Virus record (IMG/VR): IMGVR_UViG_3300042090_002011
Span: 1-23,360 of that record
DNA: 23,360 bases
Reading direction: 5' to 3' (one strand)
From: a virus
In this document: positions 3,401 through 17,036 of the stretch, piece after piece
Numbering within the stretch: the first letter of the stretch is position 1
How the letters are laid out: every line of letters begins with the position of its first letter
Notes under the pieces: generated by a model
What the model saw: only the letters and a program-made list of their open reading frames with translations
What the model was told of the DNA's origin: nothing
The model's database searches: none
Translations under genes and position numbers: made by a program

Positions 3401-5731
3401 TTACATCCCTCCCAGTTTGCCCATGCGCATCGCGCGGGAGAGTTCCTTCACCATCTGCTTGCTGTTCTTCCTCATCACGCGCCCGGTGGAGACGCCGTCG
3501 AGCGCCGAGACCTTCCGGTTGTCGTGGTAATGCACATCGCCACCAGAGTTTGAGGTTGACTGGTCCACCATCCGTTCAAAGTTGGTGTTCTGGCTCGGAG
3601 TAAGAACGCGCTCCCCGCCGTGAACCATGGCAACTTGCGTCTTCGGCACCACGCCGCCAATATCGAAGGCCGCCATGCCCGCCCAGACCATGCCTTGCGC
3701 GTATGTTTCCGCTGCTGCACCCGGCGCCATCGCGGGCCCAATGATCGGGATAGCGGAAGTTGCCGCCAGTGCCGCAGCTGCAGCCACTGCAGCATAGCTC
3801 GCAGCGGCAAGCATATTGCTCATGGACGTCGTGAGAGTTGCCGCTCCTTGTGCCGTTTTTTGCGCGGCCAGCGAAGAGGTATCGATACCCAGCTTTGCCG
3901 CCGCAGCCGAGAGATGGCCGCCAACATCAAATGCGTGAAAGAGCGCACTCGCCGCCTTCATTAGTACGTGGGTGAGGATCCACCTCTCCGCAACCTGTTC
4001 GATTGCGCGGATCGAGTCCATGGCTATGGTGTTCCATTGCTGCTTCATCGCCTGGCCAAAAGTCTTCTGATGTTGCATCCAGCTGTTGATCCCGCTGAAC
4101 ATAGACTGGCTGACCTGTGTCATCCATTGCCGATATGCCTGCATCCGCTGCTGCAGGTTCGCGATGTCATCCTGAAGTGCCTGCTTGCGTCCCTTGGCCT
4201 CGATCTTCGCCTGCTCATCGATGTCCTTCAGGTATGCCTTCGTATCGGTCTTATCGATCTCGATCTTGGCCTGAATGTATGCGCGCTCAAGTGCGAGCTG
4301 TTCGGCGTGCAAGGCTCTAAGCTTTGAGAGAGCTTGCCCATCGTCGATCATTCCGAGCGACTGCTGGCCTTTGACCTGGGTTTCCTTGTAATCGACCTGG
4401 CCAAGCGACTCGTCGCGCTTTCCCTTCAGACTCAGGTCCGCTTCCTCGCGCGCCTCTTTCGCGTCTCGCGCGGCCTTCTCCATCTTTTTGTTTTCGTTGG
4501 CCCAGTACTTCTCCTGCATCTCGTACTTCGACTTTTGCTCGTCGGCAGCGGCTTTAATTATGCCTTCCTTGGCCCGCTGCACAAGCGCGAGAAACTCCGG
4601 AAGCGTCTGCTTATATTGCGCGGTCACATCGCCGCCGGGCATCGAGGAGACCATGGCCCCGAGGCCAGCCTGCTTCATCTCCTGCTGCAGGCGGATTCGC
4701 TTTTGTAGCTCGGCTTCTGCCGCGTCCGCCGCACGCTTACGAGTTTCCGCCTCCGCATCTGCAGCGGCCTTCGTCATATTTGCGAAGTCCTGCACGCGGA
4801 GCTGTGAGGTTGTCAGTTCCTGATTAAGTAGAGTGGCTTCCGTGCGCAGCTTCTCCATCTGCGCAACCGTCTGTTCAGAGACCACGCCTGGGACGCCCAT
4901 CGAGCCGGCTTCCGTCTGGATTACGCCAGGCGTTGCGGCTTCCTGTGCTCCCCGTTTTGCGGTCTCGGCCTGTGCAGTCTTGTTCGCCGCGAGCGCCGCC
5001 CTTATCGCATCAAGGTGGCTCTTTTCGTCGTCGAGATCGCGCTGCTTGATCTGCGACATCGAGTGTGTCTGATTAAATATCTCCTGTTGGTATTGCTTTT
5101 GTTTCCCAGCCTCGTCCGCCATCTTCTTATTGAAGACAAGCTCGGCGTCGTAGGCGTCCTGCATTGCCTTGGTAAAGATGTAGGTGTTGGCAATCCACTT
5201 TGAGATGGCATCGCCGATGTGCTCGGCGAGCTGGAGAAACGCGACGGCCGTGACCATTGGGAAGATCGCGCTCATTGCGCTCGACAGGGCAGGAGTCCGG
5301 CTGATGATCTGCTCCATGCCGCGCCCTAACCGCAGACCGAGGACGTTCGAGAACAGCGTTGCCTGGCTGTATCCGCTAGCCATCGCCGTAGTGCTATCGC
5401 CCATCGCCGACTTCAATTCGCGCTGGGCGGCGGCGTGGGCTTTGGCCGCCTGCGCAGCCTCAGCCTGCGCCACTGCGAGGTCGTTAACCACCCGCGTGGT
5501 CAACGGCACCTCGCCGGTGGCGATGGCCCGCAGCGTATCTTTTACGGCTTTCTGTGCGGAGTTCGCCTCGACGGTTGCCGAGGCTAGTTGCGACCAGGCG
5601 TTCTGCGCCTGGCGTCCTGCCTGCGACATCTGGTCGGTTGCGCTGCGTACAACCGACGCCGCTTCCTGCATGTCAGAATGCAGGGCGGCGACGTTCGAGC
5701 TGACCGCGATATTTACGCTAGGCGTTCCCAA
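3401..5731 (-). CDS. Tape measure protein
   Basis: The 776-residue protein starts with TTG at 5731, 7 bases after GGAG and overlapping the preceding chaperone gene by 14 bases. No ATG nearby fits better. It is the longest tail gene and lies directly after the two chaperones, which is diagnostic. The sequence is Ala/Gln/Lys-rich and predicted coiled coil over about residues 20-110 and 230-560. Hydrophobic, possibly membrane-spanning stretches occur near 150-185 and 625-670 (an Ala-rich run ending IIGPAMAPG). The C-terminus has the typical MVHGGERVLTPSQN segment. Tape measures set tail length and leave the tail during DNA injection. No lytic or peptidase domain is seen. Confidence 0.93.
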   Translation of the reverse strand: MGTPSVNIAVSSNVAALHSDMQEAASVVRSATDQMSQAGRQAQNAWSQLASATVEANSAQKAVKDTLRAIATGEVPLTTRVVNDLAVAQAEAAQAAKAHAAAQRELKSAMGDSTTAMASGYSQATLFSNVLGLRLGRGMEQIISRTPALSSAMSAIFPMVTAVAFLQLAEHIGDAISKWIANTYIFTKAMQDAYDAELVFNKKMADEAGKQKQYQQEIFNQTHSMSQIKQRDLDDEKSHLDAIRAALAANKTAQAETAKRGAQEAATPGVIQTEAGSMGVPGVVSEQTVAQMEKLRTEATLLNQELTTSQLRVQDFANMTKAAADAEAETRKRAADAAEAELQKRIRLQQEMKQAGLGAMVSSMPGGDVTAQYKQTLPEFLALVQRAKEGIIKAAADEQKSKYEMQEKYWANENKKMEKAARDAKEAREEADLSLKGKRDESLGQVDYKETQVKGQQSLGMIDDGQALSKLRALHAEQLALERAYIQAKIEIDKTDTKAYLKDIDEQAKIEAKGRKQALQDDIANLQQRMQAYRQWMTQVSQSMFSGINSWMQHQKTFGQAMKQQWNTIAMDSIRAIEQVAERWILTHVLMKAASALFHAFDVGGHLSAAAAKLGIDTSSLAAQKTAQGAATLTTSMSNMLAAASYAAVAAAAALAATSAIPIIGPAMAPGAAAETYAQGMVWAGMAAFDIGGVVPKTQVAMVHGGERVLTPSQNTNFERMVDQSTSNSGGDVHYHDNRKVSALDGVSTGRVMRKNSKQMVKELSRAMRMGKLGGM

Positions 5732-8716: not shown

Positions 8717-11200
8717 TTAGTGATTAAGGCTGTAACCGACGCCACGGAAGTCGAGCACGGCGCCGCCCCAGACCTGCTTCACCTTGTATTGAATTTCATC
8801 CTTGGTGAAGGGCACGGAACCGTTGGACGGATTGTTGTTGACGTAGATCTGCGGCGTCTCATATCCGCCGAGGAAGCCAACCTCGATCACCGGAACGTCG
8901 GCGGGATAGCAGCCGTAGAACCAGTCGTTGGCGTAGGTCAGCAGCTCGTTCTCGATCAACCCTTCGTTGTTCGCGCCAAAGGCGTGGAAGAAGGGGTTCA
9001 CCGTGAACGTGCCAGGGCCGGTAGGCCACTTGTCCGTCTGGTTCAGCGCGATGGCGTTGCCCCACTGCGCAGGGTTGAACATCAGCCACTGCAGCGGCAG
9101 GCTCAAGGGCTTCAGCGAGTCCTTTTCCGTCTGCATCTTCAGCGCGGTGCGTGCAGCGGTCAGCGCAGCGATCGAGAGCGGCTGCGCAAGCAGGTTGTTG
9201 TGGCCTGCGTTGAACCAGGTCACGCCGTCTGGGTTGTAGTTCGGGTTATTCAGGAAGAAGTTCGTTACGAACTGCTTCAGAGTCCGGCGCGCGGCGCGGG
9301 CCATGCGTCCAGGGAACTGCGCCACTTTGCCGAGATCGTCATTGCGGATCGTCTCCTCGGTCACCGAGAGCAGGTACCCACGCTTCTGGGGCGTGTATGG
9401 AACCTGGTCGTCGGTCATGTGGGTGACTTCGCCGTACGCGCCCTCTTCGGCCACGGTCGGAAGATCGCCGAGATACCCCATGCGGACCCGGTATTGGGTT
9501 TTGTAATCGGAGAGCGTGCCCGTGGTGTAGAGCTTATCGACTCCGCCCATTCCGACTTCGGCGTAGTCCTGAACCAAACGCTTGGTCATCGAGTTGAGCA
9601 GGATATTGGGGAAGTCGGCAGTGGCTACCGCCGCGGCGTCTTCGCGGACTCCGTAGATGCCGTTGTTAAAGCGCAATTCGGAGTCGCCGCTGATCGCCAC
9701 ATACCCGGCAGTCAGCGAAGGCGCGCCGCGGAACTTGAAGGGCTTGGCTCCGCCAGCAATTGCCTCTTTCACGCCGAACGTTGCGTCCATCGCCTTCTGC
9801 AAGGCATCAGCGCCGCTGTCGCCGACTTCGATGCCGCCGGTAACCCGGCCCACGTTGGAGAAAGCCGCGAAGGCTTCCCGCGTGCGCTTGATCTCCGCGT
9901 CCACCAGCTCGCCGGTGATTGCGGCCGGATCGGACTCCAAACGAAACGCCAGGTGTTCCTTCACCAGCGTGACCGCCGAGGTTGGCAGCTTGGACGCCGT
10001 CACCTTCTGGTCGATCAGGTTCTGCGCCTGCAGCTTGCGCGCTTCAGCCAGCGCGTCCTTGGCTTCCTTCACCAGCGCCGTGTTGGCCGCGTTGTTGTTG
10101 TCGTTTGCTGCGGACATTGCCGCTTCGGTCACCTTCACCAGGAAATCGGGAAGCGCGGCTTCCGCCAGGCCCTCCAACTCCGTGGTGAGTGTGCCGGCGC
10201 GGTTGGCATCCTTCGCCCGCAGAGCTTCCAGCACCTGCAAAATGCGCTTCTTCATTGCCTCTCCCTCATTGCTTTCGCGGCCCGCCTCGGCGCGGCCGTG
10301 AGTTCGTACAGCTTTGGTTTGAAGTTCCGAGATCTCGCTCAAGGTCGCCCGCGAAGCGGCCACCAGGAAGCGTCCTCCCGCTCCCGCCTCTGCAACCAGG
10401 TCCACGCTTGCGAGCTTGACCAGCTTGCCCGAGACCATGGCGTCGCGCCCTTCCGCTTTACCCTTGCTGAAGGCCACGTATCCGTTGATCGACAGCCCGA
10501 AGAGATCTCCGAGCTTGCCCGCCTTGCGCGCGGCATTCAGCCGCCCTGCAAGGTCGCTTTCGTTCGCCAGCAGATTCAGCTCGGCGGTCGCCTCGTTCGC
10601 CTGGAGCGTGCCGTTCGTAAACCAACCTGCGATGCGCTCTGGCTCGTTCGAGCCGGTGCCCTCCGCAGGATGCTTACGCCCGAACTTCGCGCCGTTAAGC
10701 GACTGCGCAAGTTCGGCAACCGTCTCCTGGGTGTAGTAGTGAGGAGTCGGAGAGCCGTTGAGCGTGCCCTTTCCCCACCCGGCCTTCATCGCGACCACGT
10801 TGTACTTGAACGGGTCCGCGCCGTCTGCCGACTCATTCACGAAGCACGCCGCCTCGCGCACCGGAACGTATGCGGTCTCTACCTGGACCGGATCTCCGAA
10901 GACGAACGATTCAGTTCCTTCGTCAACGCTGAATGTGATCTGATACAGCTCGCCGTCCTGGCTCCGCGCGATGACATACGTGGGAAAGGTTTCGACGATG
11001 GAGTACTTCGACCAGCCGTGATCGTCCACGCCGAACTTGGCGTCCAGGGCGCGGGCAAGTTCCGCCATCCGGTCCTCGATGGACTCATCCGCGTCTCCGG
11101 AAACCACGCCAGCCTCCTGGGCAAGCATGACCAACGGAACCGGGATGCCGTAGCGTTCCTGCGGGTGGATCAGCCTGTATGTCTTCTGCTGCTTCATCAT
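8717..11200 (-). CDS. Prohead protease, scaffold and major capsid protein fusion
   Basis: The ATG at 11200 has AAAGG 5 bases upstream and is preferred over a GTG at 11206, giving 827 residues. Residues 1-115 are a small accessory domain (SKYSIVETFPTYVIARSQDG). Residues of about 120-300 look like a prohead protease: His177 in KHPAE, Ser237 in FGLSINGYV, and Asp267/Glu271 in SVDLVAEAG are catalytic candidates. Residues of about 316-450 are Ala/Lys/Glu-rich helix typical of scaffold. Residues 530-827 are the capsid domain, with GYLLSVTEETIRNDDLG, PLQWLMFNPAQWG and a C-terminal AVLDFRGVGY. The protease would cut the scaffold from the shell during head maturation. Fused arrangements are known in related phages. 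An internal start at 10255 could give the capsid precursor separately. Confidence 0.9.
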   Translation of the reverse strand: MMKQQKTYRLIHPQERYGIPVPLVMLAQEAGVVSGDADESIEDRMAELARALDAKFGVDDHGWSKYSIVETFPTYVIARSQDGELYQITFSVDEGTESFVFGDPVQVETAYVPVREAACFVNESADGADPFKYNVVAMKAGWGKGTLNGSPTPHYYTQETVAELAQSLNGAKFGRKHPAEGTGSNEPERIAGWFTNGTLQANEATAELNLLANESDLAGRLNAARKAGKLGDLFGLSINGYVAFSKGKAEGRDAMVSGKLVKLASVDLVAEAGAGGRFLVAASRATLSEISELQTKAVRTHGRAEAGRESNEGEAMKKRILQVLEALRAKDANRAGTLTTELEGLAEAALPDFLVKVTEAAMSAANDNNNAANTALVKEAKDALAEARKLQAQNLIDQKVTASKLPTSAVTLVKEHLAFRLESDPAAITGELVDAEIKRTREAFAAFSNVGRVTGGIEVGDSGADALQKAMDATFGVKEAIAGGAKPFKFRGAPSLTAGYVAISGDSELRFNNGIYGVREDAAAVATADFPNILLNSMTKRLVQDYAEVGMGGVDKLYTTGTLSDYKTQYRVRMGYLGDLPTVAEEGAYGEVTHMTDDQVPYTPQKRGYLLSVTEETIRNDDLGKVAQFPGRMARAARRTLKQFVTNFFLNNPNYNPDGVTWFNAGHNNLLAQPLSIAALTAARTALKMQTEKDSLKPLSLPLQWLMFNPAQWGNAIALNQTDKWPTGPGTFTVNPFFHAFGANNEGLIENELLTYANDWFYGCYPADVPVIEVGFLGGYETPQIYVNNNPSNGSVPFTKDEIQYKVKQVWGGAVLDFRGVGYSLNH
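10255..10270 (-). promoter_or_regulatory. Internal ribosome site and start inside the protease-capsid fusion
   Basis: On the minus strand TGAGGGAGAGGCAATG precedes codon 316 of the fusion, in frame. GGAG is 5 bases and GAGG 8 bases from the ATG, which is as good as the best start sites in this operon. Starting here gives MKKRILQVLEAL and a 512-residue scaffold-capsid product (8717-10255) without the protease. Making excess capsid relative to protease is a known need, as in lambda C and Nu3. Use of the start is inferred. Confidence 0.65.
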
Positions 11201-11218
11201 TGTCACCTTTCGCGCGTG

Positions 11219-11545
11219 CTACTTTTTCTTCTTATCCGGGTCCGGAACGGGGAACTTGTAGCGCTTGGCGTCCGTGGTCACGATGCGCAGCTCGCCATCC
11301 ACTACCTCGGAGAGCAACACCTGGTGAGCCGGCAGCGCCAGCGCTTCCTCGTGAGACTTCGGCTCTGGAACCTGCAGCATTCGGTTTGCTTCGCGCAACG
11401 CGGCTTGCCGCTGGGCTGCTTCGTCTTCAGGAAAATTGCGCTGCGCCTGGCGGAATGCCTTCGCATAAAGCTCCGCCCACTCGGCGCGTTCTTTTTTCGG
11501 TAAGCATTGAGGAGCTTCCGGAATGTTGATTTCTTCTGCTGCCAT
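11219..11545 (-). CDS. ChaB-like small phage protein
   Basis: The 108-residue protein starts at the ATG at 11545 after GAGAGGAAG. A longer frame upstream would overlap the F-like gene and reads as shadow sequence. Residues 5-55 (PEAPQCLPKKERAEWAELYA followed by KAFRQAQ and a conserved-looking Ala-rich helix) resemble the ChaB domain, a small helical domain seen in host cation-transport regulators and in many phage genes near the prohead protease. Residues 60-100 form a second part ending in a Pro/Lys-rich tail. It lies between the F-like minor head protein and the protease-capsid fusion, so a head-assembly accessory role is possible. No function is established by the sequence. Confidence 0.7.
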   Translation of the reverse strand: MAAEEINIPEAPQCLPKKERAEWAELYAKAFRQAQRNFPEDEAAQRQAALREANRMLQVPEPKSHEEALALPAHQVLLSEVVDGELRIVTTDAKRYKFPVPDPDKKKK

Positions 11546-11561: not shown

Positions 11562-12470
11562 CTACGCGACCTTGATCGCGATTCCCAGTTTGTCCAACAA
11601 CGCCTTGTGTTCCGCCGACGGCTTGAGCACGTCCGCATCGAAATGTGGAAGGCTCAGGCAGTGGCAAAAGATCGTGTTCTCTGCAGACCCGTTCGGATCG
11701 CGCGGATACATCAACTCCTCCGGGGCCGCGCCTGGCAGAACCGGAATTTCAAAAGGTTCGTTCACGCCCTTGATCTGCCCGTCCGCAATGAGGTGTGTCA
11801 GGCGCGGGAAACGGGCTACCGGAATGTGCTTCCATATCTTTTTCAGAGCAGGATGACGCTCGACAAGTTCCTCCATGCGAGCCTGTCCGCTGATCCCATG
11901 AATGCGAAGAATCTCGTTGGTTGCGATTCCAGCCGCGCGCTCGCCGATCTTGTCGAAGATGCTCACCCGTCCGGTCGCTCCCAGGCCGCGCCCGATCTGC
12001 TGCACGATCTGGTCCCAGCTCTGTCCGCCCAGGAAGGCCCGCTGCAGCGCCGAATTAATGTCATGTGCCGCCTGGCGCGAAAGGTTGGTGATGAGATCGG
12101 CCGTGTAACCCTGGGCAATCGACAGTGTTGTCGGATTCACATGCCCCATGGCGATCGCTTCCATCCCAATCGCGATCAACGGCTGGGTCACTCCCTCGGC
12201 GCCCATACGCGCTGCGTGCGACTCGGCAGACTCCAGAAACGTTGTTGCGTCGGAGCGGAACTTATCCATCGCCTGGTCAATCGAGCGCTTCAACTCCGTG
12301 AGCTGAGCCGCCGAGAAACTTGCGGGATCGACGTCCGCCAGGCGTCCGAGGATCTCGCGCCGCGTCGCATCGAGCATCTCCAGAACGCGCGAGCGGGCAG
12401 CCGGCGCCAGATCCTTCGTCTGGGCAATCAGCTCAGCCACCTTCGCCGCGAATTCGGATTGAATGCTCAT
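11562..12470 (-). CDS. Minor head protein, phage Mu F-like (SPP1 gp7-like)
   Basis: The 302-residue protein starts at the ATG at 12470 with AGGGA just upstream. The long helical N-terminal region (1-210) is followed by the family core near residues 220-235, FPRLTHLIADGQ, in which the Arg, His and Asp-Gly-Gln are typical. A CHCLSLPHF motif near residue 270 matches the C-terminal Cys signature. Mu F-type proteins bind the portal vertex and are needed for head assembly and DNA ejection. The portal gene lies upstream and the capsid gene downstream, the usual order. The ChaB-like gene follows after 16 bases. Confidence 0.87.
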   Translation of the reverse strand: MSIQSEFAAKVAELIAQTKDLAPAARSRVLEMLDATRREILGRLADVDPASFSAAQLTELKRSIDQAMDKFRSDATTFLESAESHAARMGAEGVTQPLIAIGMEAIAMGHVNPTTLSIAQGYTADLITNLSRQAAHDINSALQRAFLGGQSWDQIVQQIGRGLGATGRVSIFDKIGERAAGIATNEILRIHGISGQARMEELVERHPALKKIWKHIPVARFPRLTHLIADGQIKGVNEPFEIPVLPGAAPEELMYPRDPNGSAENTIFCHCLSLPHFDADVLKPSAEHKALLDKLGIAIKVA

Positions 12471-12971: not shown

Positions 12972-14561
12972 TCAGTTGACAACCGGACCCGCTTGCGCTA
13001 TCGGCTGCGCGGTCACAGTTTCCTCTTGCGGTTTCTGGGCCAGCGCCGCCGCCAGCTTCGACTGCGCATTGAGCGTGTTGATGTCCTGGGCCTTTTTGTC
13101 CTGGAGTTCCTTCTGTGCCTCTTCGTACTCGACCTGGGGATCGTCCACGTCGGTGCCGATTTGCGTCAGCACATTCACAAAGGCCCGCGCCGCCGTCACT
13201 CCGCGGATCCAGCCGCGATCCTCGGCTACTGCCAGCGAGCTCGTCGCGCCCTGCAGAATGGTTGCGCCTTTAGCGAAGTCCTTCATCAGCAGGTCGGGCG
13301 TGGTCAGCGTGAACTTTTCATTCGCACCCTCGGCCAGCGATCCGTGCAGCTTTGCCTGGGCGATGACGAACTTCAGAATGTCCGTGGTATCGCGCACTAG
13401 TTGGTTTTGGTGCTCGGTGAGAACCTTTCCCGTGGGGCCGTCCATCTCGGCGGCCACGGCGCGGTTGGCGTCGTTCGGGTCGCCCATCCAGTGCGGAGGT
13501 AAACCGGCGCCGCCGCATCCGTAGTGCTTTACAACCCTCACAGATTCGCTGGTGTCTGCGCCCTTCAGATCCGGCGTCACCGCCGCCACCGTCATCTTTT
13601 CGTTATGAACCTTGACCCCGCCCTGCCGTGGAGGATTCTTAGTGAACTCGTCGTTAAACTTGCGCAGCTCAGGCTCGGTCGCTCCCTGCACCGTCACGTC
13701 CCAGATGAACTGCTGCAGGAACCTGACGCGATCGGCGAAGTCGAAGACCATCTGGTCGAGCACGTCCACCCAGTCAGCCAGCGCGAACAGTTCGCTGATG
13801 CCGCGGCTGCCCATCTTGGCCTTATTAATCGAGAAGTAGAAAACCTCGCCGATCATCTTGCCGTAGCTCGCCGAGTAGAAGTCCTCGTCGCGGCGGATGA
13901 TGGCCAGCTCGCGTCCCTCGGGCTCTCCGGTACGTGCCCGGAGCTTGACCGCCGTGGGGATCGAGATCTCCGATTGCCCATTGCCGGTCTGCAGCAGTCC
14001 GTAGCGGATCGAGGCCACGTCGGCGGCGTCGATATAGCCCAGCCGCACAAAGCCGTCCACCGGATTCACCGCAACCGGCAGCGTCAGTTCGCCGAAGACA
14101 AGCTTTTCGTGCATCCACTGCGAGAGATTCTCTTCCAGGTTGTTGATCGGATCGTCCCAGAAGCGGTCCACCACGGCCTGCGTCTGCGGATCCTCGCACT
14201 GCACCGAAAAGCCTTCGCCTACCACGAACGCCGTGAGCATTCGCAAAATCTGCTTGGCGAAAGGATTGGTGACCGAGAGGTAGTAGCACACTTGCTGCAT
14301 CCGCTGCTGCATGAACGGATTCAGGTCGCGCATCGAGTTCGGCGAGGTGATGCGCTGGAAGTGAACGTCTTCGCTGTCGCCCGCGCTCAACGTGAACAGC
14401 ATCGGGCCAACGCTTTCTTTCACACCCGCGGGCTTGCTCTCGACTGCCTGACGCGCCTCGCTGAGATCGAGCAGGGTCATGTCGGCACGATGAAACGCGT
14501 TGTAGATCGCGCTGTCTTTGCCCTTGTGCCCGAGCAGGTTCTTTAGCCCCTTGAAGTCCAT
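12972..14561 (-). CDS. Portal protein
   Basis: The ATG at 14561 has AGGAG 8 bases upstream and is preferred over a longer start at 14597, giving 529 residues. It overlaps the end of the large terminase gene by 19 bases. The order terminase, portal, F-like protein is standard. Sequence features fit a portal: an N-terminal region ending SPNSMRDLNPFMQQRMQQ, a CYYLSVTNPFAKQILRMLTA helix, a SRGISELFALADWVDVLDQM stretch typical of the wing/stem region, and a helical C-terminus rich in Gln and Lys. Portals form the dodecameric ring through which DNA is packed. The family is not DUF935 (Mu gp29), so the Mu resemblance of the neighbours does not extend to this gene. Confidence 0.88.
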   Translation of the reverse strand: MDFKGLKNLLGHKGKDSAIYNAFHRADMTLLDLSEARQAVESKPAGVKESVGPMLFTLSAGDSEDVHFQRITSPNSMRDLNPFMQQRMQQVCYYLSVTNPFAKQILRMLTAFVVGEGFSVQCEDPQTQAVVDRFWDDPINNLEENLSQWMHEKLVFGELTLPVAVNPVDGFVRLGYIDAADVASIRYGLLQTGNGQSEISIPTAVKLRARTGEPEGRELAIIRRDEDFYSASYGKMIGEVFYFSINKAKMGSRGISELFALADWVDVLDQMVFDFADRVRFLQQFIWDVTVQGATEPELRKFNDEFTKNPPRQGGVKVHNEKMTVAAVTPDLKGADTSESVRVVKHYGCGGAGLPPHWMGDPNDANRAVAAEMDGPTGKVLTEHQNQLVRDTTDILKFVIAQAKLHGSLAEGANEKFTLTTPDLLMKDFAKGATILQGATSSLAVAEDRGWIRGVTAARAFVNVLTQIGTDVDDPQVEYEEAQKELQDKKAQDINTLNAQSKLAAALAQKPQEETVTAQPIAQAGPVVN

Positions 14562-15997
14562 ACCGATCTCCTGTCGCGCTGTGCGCGTGCTCCCCACTCC
14601 GGTGCTTCGTCGCCAGCGGATTCGCCGCCGCTCATCTCATTTATCGCCTGGCTCATCACGCCGCGCTCGCGCCCGTGAACTTCCGTCGTGTCGCCGTGTA
14701 CTATCGCGGCCGGAGCCGAGTCCGCCGCCGCCGCTGCCGCCAGCGCCCCAGCCCAGAATTCATCGGCGTGGCCAGCCTCGGTGCGCACGGCGTCGAAGCG
14801 GAAGTGTCCGGTTGGCGACGTGTAGCGCTTCACTGCATTGCAGGCGCGGCGGATAAAATTCGCGGCTGGGATTCGCACTGTACGGTTTTCAAAACGTGTC
14901 TTAAAGCCTGTGGCCATCGCCTCTTTGTTCGCGATATTGAACTCGACGGCTTCCACGCGACCGCCATACTTTACGACCAGGTCTTCGCCGATCTGCGCGC
15001 CGATACCCGTGGAGTCCACGCATCCACGGCGAACGCCGTGATCCATCAGGCTGCACGCCATCTCGAACTGGACGCGGAATGGAGTTCGTTCCAGGACAAT
15101 GACCGCGCGTGTGATCAGCACGTCGGCGAGCTTCTCAACCAGCCACATCACCGTGCGGTCTTTCTTGCGGCCAATATCAATCCCGAGGAACAAATCTCCG
15201 ATGGGCGCAAAGTCCGCAGGAATATCGAGCGTCGCCATTTCACTCTCGGCCGCCACGATCAGTTCCATGGGAATGAAGTTCTCGGCATCTGCCAGAAAGA
15301 TGCAGCAGTACTCCTGCATCCAGGTGTCTTCATCGCCTGCAGCCTCGTGCATTGCGGCGATGTCAATCGGGCAACCCTCTTGGGTCGCGCGATAGATATC
15401 CAGCCAGTGGATGCTCCACACGCCATGCGTCCACCTGGTGCGCTCCGAGCCGCCGAATGCCGGGACGCCGACTTCACGGCAGACATCCCAGTACTTCCCC
15501 TGCTGACCGTTGGGGGTGGAAACCACTTCAACGCCAAAGCCGCGCGAGGCAATAGCCATTGCGCCCTTCCAGATCTTGTGCGGGTCGCGATGGAAGGCAA
15601 ATTCGTCCAGGACAACATCGCCACTGAAGCCGCGCATGGTGTCCGGATTGGCCGGCAGTCCAACAATGCGCGAGCCGTTGTGGCGGAAGGTCACCATCTC
15701 GGCTTTGTCGTCGGTGCCGGGGAAGTCGATCTGTTCGTACTCGAAAATCTGTTTGACCGCGCGGGCGTGCGTCTGAACGTACTCGATGGCTTCCTTCGAC
15801 TGACGCTGCGAAGCCGAGATCCAAACGGTTGTGCCGCGCGTCCGGACGCGCTTGCGAACGTGGCGGAACGAGGTGCCGAAGCTGAGGCCAGTCTGGCGCC
15901 CTTTCACCATCAGCTTGAAGCGCGACTCATCCGTGATCCACACCTTCTGGTATGGATACAGCTGAATCTTTGCCCCGGTCTGTGGCGATTCGGTCAA
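14543..15997 (-). CDS. terL: Terminase large subunit, Mu gp28-like
   Basis: The 484-residue protein starts with TTG at 15997, overlapping the stop of the XRE gene (TTGA) and 8 bases after GGGAG. The ATPase domain has a variant Walker A, KGRQTGLS (32-39), and a Walker B, VVLDE (128-132). The C-terminal RNase H-like nuclease has Asp274 in LGIDIGRKKDRT, Asp328 in CVDSTGIG and a likely third acid near HADEFW (about 429). All catalytic acids are present, so the enzyme appears intact. It would cut and pump DNA into the prohead together with the small terminase encoded two genes upstream. The GIDIGRK.D motif is typical of Mu gp28 relatives. Confidence 0.94.
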   Translation of the reverse strand: MTESPQTGAKIQLYPYQKVWITDESRFKLMVKGRQTGLSFGTSFRHVRKRVRTRGTTVWISASQRQSKEAIEYVQTHARAVKQIFEYEQIDFPGTDDKAEMVTFRHNGSRIVGLPANPDTMRGFSGDVVLDEFAFHRDPHKIWKGAMAIASRGFGVEVVSTPNGQQGKYWDVCREVGVPAFGGSERTRWTHGVWSIHWLDIYRATQEGCPIDIAAMHEAAGDEDTWMQEYCCIFLADAENFIPMELIVAAESEMATLDIPADFAPIGDLFLGIDIGRKKDRTVMWLVEKLADVLITRAVIVLERTPFRVQFEMACSLMDHGVRRGCVDSTGIGAQIGEDLVVKYGGRVEAVEFNIANKEAMATGFKTRFENRTVRIPAANFIRRACNAVKRYTSPTGHFRFDAVRTEAGHADEFWAGALAAAAAADSAPAAIVHGDTTEVHGRERGVMSQAINEMSGGESAGDEAPEWGARAQRDRRSVWTSRG

Positions 15998-16392
15998 TTT
16001 GCTCTCCCAAGGTCAAACTGTTCCAAAACTCCGCGCGCTACCGCATCCATCGCACCGTTGGTACAGGCCGTCATGATCCTGAATCCGCCGTGGGCAAAAA
16101 CCACGGTCCTGCCAGACATCAGCGACATCGCCTCGGCGAGGTCATCTCCGCTGAGACCTGCCTGCTCGTAGAACCACAACCTCTGCTCTTTCGGGGCGAT
16201 CTTTGCCATGCGGATGAGGTTTCTGTCGGAAGGTGGCTTTTCACCGTTCTCCCATCGAAGGGCGGCGATCCGCGTTACGCCGAGCTTTTCGGCAAACTCG
16301 CCCTGCGACATGCCAAGCATCACGCGCAGCGAAAAGATTCGCATGGCCGTATAGGTCGGGAATTTCCGTAGCTTTTTGCTTTTCGCATTCAT
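15994..16392 (-). CDS. XRE-type helix-turn-helix protein
   Basis: The 132-residue protein starts at the ATG at 16390-16392, overlapping the TGA of the small terminase gene, and ends overlapping the TTG of the large terminase. The helix-turn-helix covers about residues 18-65: MRIFSLRVMLGMSQGEFAEK, then LGVTRIAALRWENGEKPPS, a classic Cro/C1-type DNA reader. The C-terminal half ends MDAVARGVLEQFDLGRAN and is not recognised. Standing between the two terminase genes and translationally coupled to both, it may act in late gene control or in DNA recognition for packaging. It is not placed like a lysogeny repressor. Confidence 0.83.
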   Translation of the reverse strand: MNAKSKKLRKFPTYTAMRIFSLRVMLGMSQGEFAEKLGVTRIAALRWENGEKPPSDRNLIRMAKIAPKEQRLWFYEQAGLSGDDLAEAMSLMSGRTVVFAHGGFRIMTACTNGAMDAVARGVLEQFDLGRAN

Positions 16393-17036
16393 TCGGCAAT
16401 CCCGTAAATCTGGTCAAGCTTCTGTTGCAACTGTTCGGGCGTGACTTCCTTCTTCTCGATGGCGTCTTTCAGGCCCTTAACGCTGCCCTTCATCAGTTCC
16501 AGCTTTTTGCCGAGCAGCTCGATCTTCTGTTGCTCCTGCTCCACTCGCGTCCGCGCCAGTTCGTTGCGGTCGAAGCGCGCCAGCAGCAGCCCGATGTCAG
16601 CCAGCGCTTCGGCGATCACCATCGGGTTGTGTTCGTTATTCATCAGCTCGAAGACCGTCTCACCCATGGCGTGTTTCACGGACTCGGTCAGGTTTGAGAA
16701 GCCGCGCCCGGCGACTTTATCCGCGGCTGCGTGTGCGGCGATCGAGCGCTGCTCCTGCTCTTTCATCACCTGCGAGACCCGGAGGTCGTACCAGCGATGC
16801 AGATTCGAGTGCGGCAAACGGCGGCCGGGAAAGAGCGCGTAGACCTCGGTCGCAACGCCGTCGTTCCATTCCTTCCAGGAGGGCGAATCCTCCTCGATCT
16901 CCATCCAGGTGCGCCCCGCGATCCGCGCCGCGCGAATGTGGTCCTGCATGGCCAGCGGCAGCCGGTCGATGCCGAGGGGCTGGCGGACCTTTCGCGCCTC
17001 TCCGGTTCTGGGACGCCTGGCGGCATTTCCGGTCAT
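16389..17036 (-). CDS. Terminase small subunit-like protein, DUF3486 (Mu gp27-like)
   Basis: The 215-residue protein starts at the ATG at 17036 and overlaps the stop of the upstream small gene (ATGA). The N-terminal segment RQPLGIDRLPLAMQDHIRAA with the following RTWMEIEEDSPSW helix looks like the HTH-type DNA-recognition part of DUF3486 proteins. The remainder is a long helical, Glu/Lys/Gln-rich oligomerisation region (about 90-215). In Mu-like phages the family pairs with gp28-type large terminases, as found two genes downstream. It would bind the packaging signal and hand DNA to the large subunit. The assignment rests on pattern and place, not a diagnostic catalytic motif. Confidence 0.77.
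   Translation of the reverse strand: MTGNAARRPRTGEARKVRQPLGIDRLPLAMQDHIRAARIAGRTWMEIEEDSPSWKEWNDGVATEVYALFPGRRLPHSNLHRWYDLRVSQVMKEQEQRSIAAHAAADKVAGRGFSNLTESVKHAMGETVFELMNNEHNPMVIAEALADIGLLLARFDRNELARTRVEQEQQKIELLGKKLELMKGSVKGLKDAIEKKEVTPEQLQQKLDQIYGIAE

Follow-up and report, generated by a model that had tools for sequence, protein, structure and literature searches.

How can a phage fuse its prohead protease to its shell protein without arming the whole shell? A protease on every shell subunit should be harmful, and the question of how such genes escape this is raised by a protease–scaffold–major capsid fusion gene on the minus strand (8717..11200) of the window, the 23,360-base virus record that we analysed. 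An earlier note on this DNA had proposed that an internal in-frame ATG at position 10255 yields a second, protease-free protein from the same gene. Here, we examine the anatomy of the gene, the folds of its parts, the conservation of the internal site and its counterparts in other phages.

A tripartite gene in the head module

The window carries a leftward head module in which a small terminase-like gene (16389-17036, weak match) is followed on the minus strand by the terminase large subunit (14543..15997), the portal protein (12972..14561), a Mu gpF-like head morphogenesis protein (11562..12470), a small gene for a 108-residue protein without a family match (11219..11545) and the fusion gene, after which come tail genes. 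One open frame spans protease, scaffold and HK97-fold capsid protein: the minus-strand ORF 11206..8717 is open throughout, and its product has 827 residues when read from ATG 11200. The likely primary starts, ATG 11200 and ATG 11197, are equally plausible (SD energies of -5.8 and -6.9), while GTG 11206, an alternative primary start, has an SD energy of only -0.7.

Folds of the protease and capsid parts

The N-terminal domain was modelled with AlphaFold from 43 sequences (mean pLDDT 78.6), and its best structural match was the T4 prohead protease gp21 (5jbl; Foldseek E 5.6e-5). The two structures aligned over 144 residues (Z 10.1, rmsd 3.6) within residues 108-270, counted from ATG 11197, which places the protease core at 10388..10876 on the minus strand. 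Herpesvirus proteases came next, at Z about 5; MCE-type and other matches at Z about 4 were set aside as common arrangements. Judged by the model, this makes the N-terminal domain a putative T4 gp21-like prohead protease, with His176 (codon 10672..10670) and Ser236 (codon 10492..10490), both invariant in the 43 sequences, as its candidate catalytic pair. The identity of the protease is drawn from the fold because sequence libraries give no protease name beyond weak PHROG matches: a Pfam and NCBIfam search of the N-terminal domain returned no protease match, a sequence profile of the domain had no match in the PDB, and the first 300 residues matched phrog_15531 (head maturation protease, E 0.019) and phrog_3894 weakly.

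In its model, which has a moderate pTM of 0.54, the 512-residue nested product begins with a helical segment (residues 1-133), and a capsid domain of the HK97 fold comes after it. On AlphaFold secondary structure the helical region occupies 9857..10255 (minus strand) and, by its position, would be a delta-like scaffold; the major capsid domain (8738..9631, minus strand) is matched by Pfam Phage_capsid_4 at residues 524-821. These assignments bear out the order that the earlier note had proposed, with protease before the internal site and scaffold–capsid after it.

A probable internal start where protease meets scaffold

With ATG 11200 as codon 1, ATG 10255 is in frame at codon 316 and directly follows a putative internal ribosome-binding site, TGAGGGAGAGGCA (10256..10268, minus strand), that contains the SD core GAGGGAGAGG (10267..10258, minus strand). 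It opens a nested ORF (8717..10255, minus strand) for a scaffold–capsid protein beginning MKKRILQVLEALRAK. On re-examination of the minus strand, both this arrangement and the claimed length of 512 residues proved correct.

All SD energies reported here assume that the host has the standard CCUCC anti-SD sequence. By this measure the duplex of the site with the 16S tail has an energy of -8.5 kcal/mol, a value reached by 0 of the 11 other in-frame ATGs of the gene. Across the window, 19 of 627 ATGs on both strands (3%) score at least as high; two GTGs and one out-of-frame ATG within the fusion gene also outscore it. In the window sequence alone, the signal is only suggestive.

Conservation among relatives with a gp21-like protease

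Viral contigs were scanned with a protein query and then with an alignment query, which gave about 80 loci and a set of 50 non-redundant full-length sequences (<90% identity, window included), the most distant being that of Microcystis phage Mae-JY22 at about 26% identity to the window. The fusion is a single open frame in all full-length relatives, and a junction that is open across all of them rules out a sequencing error or an accidental gene fusion. The fusion protein of one relative (L004:774-3308; also L026) contains, towards its N-terminus, a highly cysteine-rich insert of ~42 residues (CCQMRGQCCGGACCQNGCCGGESCQCAACQGPCCYGNCCCGQGC). In several others (L003, L007, L010; alignment columns 1-95), the protease is preceded by an additional N-terminal domain (AKTKSVGGKEYPASDFLYVGDP...), which is absent from the window.

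In 50 of 50 sequences, the aligned junction has a Met to within two residues, preceded at a distance of 2-10 bases by an SD-like sequence. The internal ribosome site put forward in the earlier note is thus conserved together with its ATG, and no sequence among the 50 keeps the junction without them. The junction has a mean SD energy of -8.2 kcal/mol, whereas the mean of the 637 remaining Met codons in frame is -2.4 kcal/mol (p 4e-30) and the means of other Met columns that are conserved range from -1.7 to +0.5; the junction is the gene's best SD site in 40 of the 50 sequences. Conservation in all 50, together with z-scores of -15.5 and -9.0 on shuffling of the 30 upstream codons at identity cuts of 90% and 70% (20 sequences at the latter), places the site far beyond chance; at cuts of 60% and 50% the z-scores were -4.3 and -4.5.

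One explanation for such a site is that it is the vestige of an old gene border, where separate genes lost the stop between them and left the SD and ATG idle. Faecalibacterium phage FP_Epona does have the two parts as separate genes, an S78-type protease (177 aa) and a scaffold–capsid protein (530 aa; L095:1528-3664), split where fused genes have the internal start, and the linker 5' of the junction is variable, being less conserved than any other part of the protein and of differing length. A vestige would decay, however, and the junction SD is never lost in the 50 sequences: it shifts between all three codon phases, for which a conserved peptide would not account, and is re-encoded by unlike peptides (EGAT, QRSGP, LGGE, VREDQ, QERAT and EIGANA), which together show selection on the RNA. 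Codon choice is likewise biased toward the SD, since redrawing synonymous codons from the gene's own usage with the peptide fixed gave a mean of -6.6 against -8.3 observed (z -4.8). A former gene border may be the origin of the site but does not explain its maintenance, and we consider an idle vestige very improbable.

The same observations weigh against a protein-level constraint, a reading we hold to be slightly less probable still, in which the protease cleaves itself at the junction peptide, whose codons resemble an SD by chance. Prohead proteases cut at scaffold borders, and many relatives have E-G-A before the Met; the junction peptides are nevertheless diverse where the SD is constant, and codon choice favours the SD significantly even when the peptide is held constant. 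Least probable is a ribosome pause, suggested by the place of the site directly after a folded domain, in which the SD-like sequence would slow the ribosome and give the protease time to fold ahead of the synthesis of the scaffold–capsid part, the Met being incidental: a pause needs no ATG 5-10 bases further on, but the ATG is invariant at the spacing of initiation, and the RNA at the junction is less folded than its flanks in 39 of 50 sequences, as at starts.

A proposed pair of nested proteins from one gene

We favour, with a probability of roughly 90%, the reading that one gene gives two nested proteins in the same frame, a short form in the majority and a long, protease-bearing form in the minority. 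It builds on the anatomy of the gene, the conservation of the site, RNA-level selection and the folds of both parts. The full-length product of 827 residues would comprise the gp21-like prohead protease, the helical scaffold and the HK97-fold capsid protein, while initiation at the internal SD and ATG 10255 would yield the 512-residue scaffold–capsid protein without the protease, presumably in excess, so as to supply most of the shell subunits. The minority long form would co-assemble with it and carry the protease into the procapsid, where the enzyme would remove the scaffold domain, probably by cleavage at the scaffold–capsid border.

On the simplest reading, alternative initiation would determine how many shell subunits bear the protease and how many do not. 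Averaged over the sequences, the internal SD is only moderately stronger than that of the best primary candidate (-8.2 against -7.4), and it is the stronger of the two in 32 of 48 sequences. The primary start, too, is served by a usable SD, so any excess of the short form is presumptive. A conserved second start would explain how tripartite genes escape the harm of a protease on every subunit, and it predicts the true shell precursor: 512 residues in the window and, in fusion genes with a ClpP-like protease, the product from Met219/220.

Probable nested starts in other fusion families

The capsid half of the window gene is related to NF045540 (ClpP-like) and NF045541, both named by NCBI as protease/major capsid fusion proteins. 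As the matches are limited to the scaffold–capsid half (357-820 and 364-820) and, at 137-159 bits, fall below the cut-offs of 475 and 525, the window gene lies outside both families and is a relative with another protease. Among ClpP-type fusions (MD8, mEp043, Fels-1, Pmp14 and IMG/VR relatives), 23 of 23 carry the aligned Met, with a mean SD energy of -6.4 versus -2.0 elsewhere and a synonymous-codon z of -5.2. The case is weaker for this type because the junction peptide itself is conserved and another Met within the protease, in the conserved GGDADDM, likewise follows a strong SD-like sequence; that it scores -7.4 means that an SD-like score by itself is no proof of initiation.

S78-type fusions (S1, MinM1 and relatives), which with the ClpP type make up the two known protease–scaffold–capsid families, have the Met in 49 of 49 sequences (90% identity cut) and an SD 4-mer in 47, and every one of the three codon phases occurs. 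In the phrog_15531 family, whose protease is joined to the scaffold but not to the capsid protein, an SD and ATG were found near the border in 24 of 25 sequences, a generous count because the best start within 25 residues was picked. This family includes a Methanoculleus archaeal virus that, like its relatives, has a protease–scaffold gene with a nested start of this kind (aagcagcaggagaatccagcATG) and a separate capsid gene (L092:861-1955; L256-L284). A nested start was present in every fusion-gene family examined.

A scan of a genome collection found no fusion and only two stand-alone capsid genes of the same family as that of the window, both on acidobacterial contigs (L086:3411-4580, L087:3357-4550). 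These encode about 390 residues without scaffold or protease, and each lies directly after an XRE-type-regulator-like gene and before tail-like genes.

We lean, somewhat beyond even odds, toward a broader proposition whose three parts are taken jointly: that all fused phage capsid genes have, as a general and unannotated rule, a nested start where protease meets scaffold; that this start was retained, or evolved anew, alongside two or more unrelated protease folds (ClpP-like and gp21/S78-like); and that a protease can be fused to a shell protein only if alternative initiation controls the ratio.

Annotation and literature

Ten database records of fused genes (mEp043, Fels-1, MD8, S1, Pmp14, MinM1, Mae-JY22, PhiR40_1, 606R10 and E. 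coli TUM1881) list only the long CDS, and an internal start is annotated in none of them, in agreement with the earlier remark that nested starts in capsid fusions rarely are. Prophages of E. coli are widely concerned: roughly one in three complete genomes of this species (1810 of 5426) has a match to the Fels-1 gene, the matches are annotated as fusion protein and the short protein is unannotated there. In our literature search, no account of an internal start in a tripartite gene came up, although the Gifsy-2 work may contain an earlier mention; the passages of the MD8 paper on the searched terms do not mention one (PMC8508860).

Comparison with known systems

A nested scaffold start is already known from Mu and lambda; the window gene would extend it to a nested scaffold–capsid start, in a tripartite fusion with a third, gp21-like protease type. 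By analogy, the internal start at the protease–scaffold border would work like those of Mu I/Z and lambda C/Nu3, and phage fusion genes would be linked in this way to the nesting of scaffold within protease in these phages. The earlier note had drawn the parallel with lambda, and it is apt, as is that with Mu. In Mu, an in-frame start for the scaffold (Z), with its SD, lies inside the protease gene (I) at the border, as in the window; the Mu record annotates I and Z as nested, and the Z SD scores alike, at -7.4 by the same measure. The Mu capsid protein T, in contrast, is a separate gene, whereas the nested product of the window includes the capsid protein. An internal scaffold start has also been described for Mu-like phages including PaMx73 (PMC4378225).

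Lambda C/Nu3 is annotated as a protease–scaffold gene with a nested scaffold start, again as in the window, but the lambda protease is of the S49/ClpP-like type and capsid protein E is separate, where the window has a gp21-like protease and a fused capsid protein. At codon 239 of C, where the nu3 start of lambda NC_001416 is annotated, the SD is poor (-2.7), and by far the best internal site is codon 309 of C, which follows ctcaggagggcga with an SD energy of -10.8 (5132-5344; L286:733-945); a re-assignment of the Nu3 start may already be published.

Closest to the window are the tripartite genes of Gifsy-2, Fels-1 and MD8, which likewise combine protease, scaffold and capsid protein in one gene. 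Their scaffold–capsid part is homologous to that of the window, and a conserved internal Met with an SD is found in the NF045540 and NF045541 types too; their protease, however, is ClpP-like or S78-type, whereas that of the window is gp21-like and covered by neither NCBIfam model. The Gifsy-2 gene is reportedly the subject of a 2010 study by Effantin, and the three-in-one capsid gene of MD8 is described in passages of its own paper (PMC8508860).

T4 gp21 (5jbl) shares the fold of the N-terminal domain but is not fused to scaffold and capsid protein. The fold of herpesvirus assemblin (pUL26N) also resembles this domain (Z about 5), and in herpes UL26/UL26.5 the nested scaffold comes from a nested transcript. 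Lastly, HK97 gp5 joins a scaffold, the delta domain, to a capsid protein of the HK97 fold, as in the window, but its protease gp4 is, in passages of the MD8 paper (PMC8508860), a separate gene, whereas the protease of the window is fused to both.
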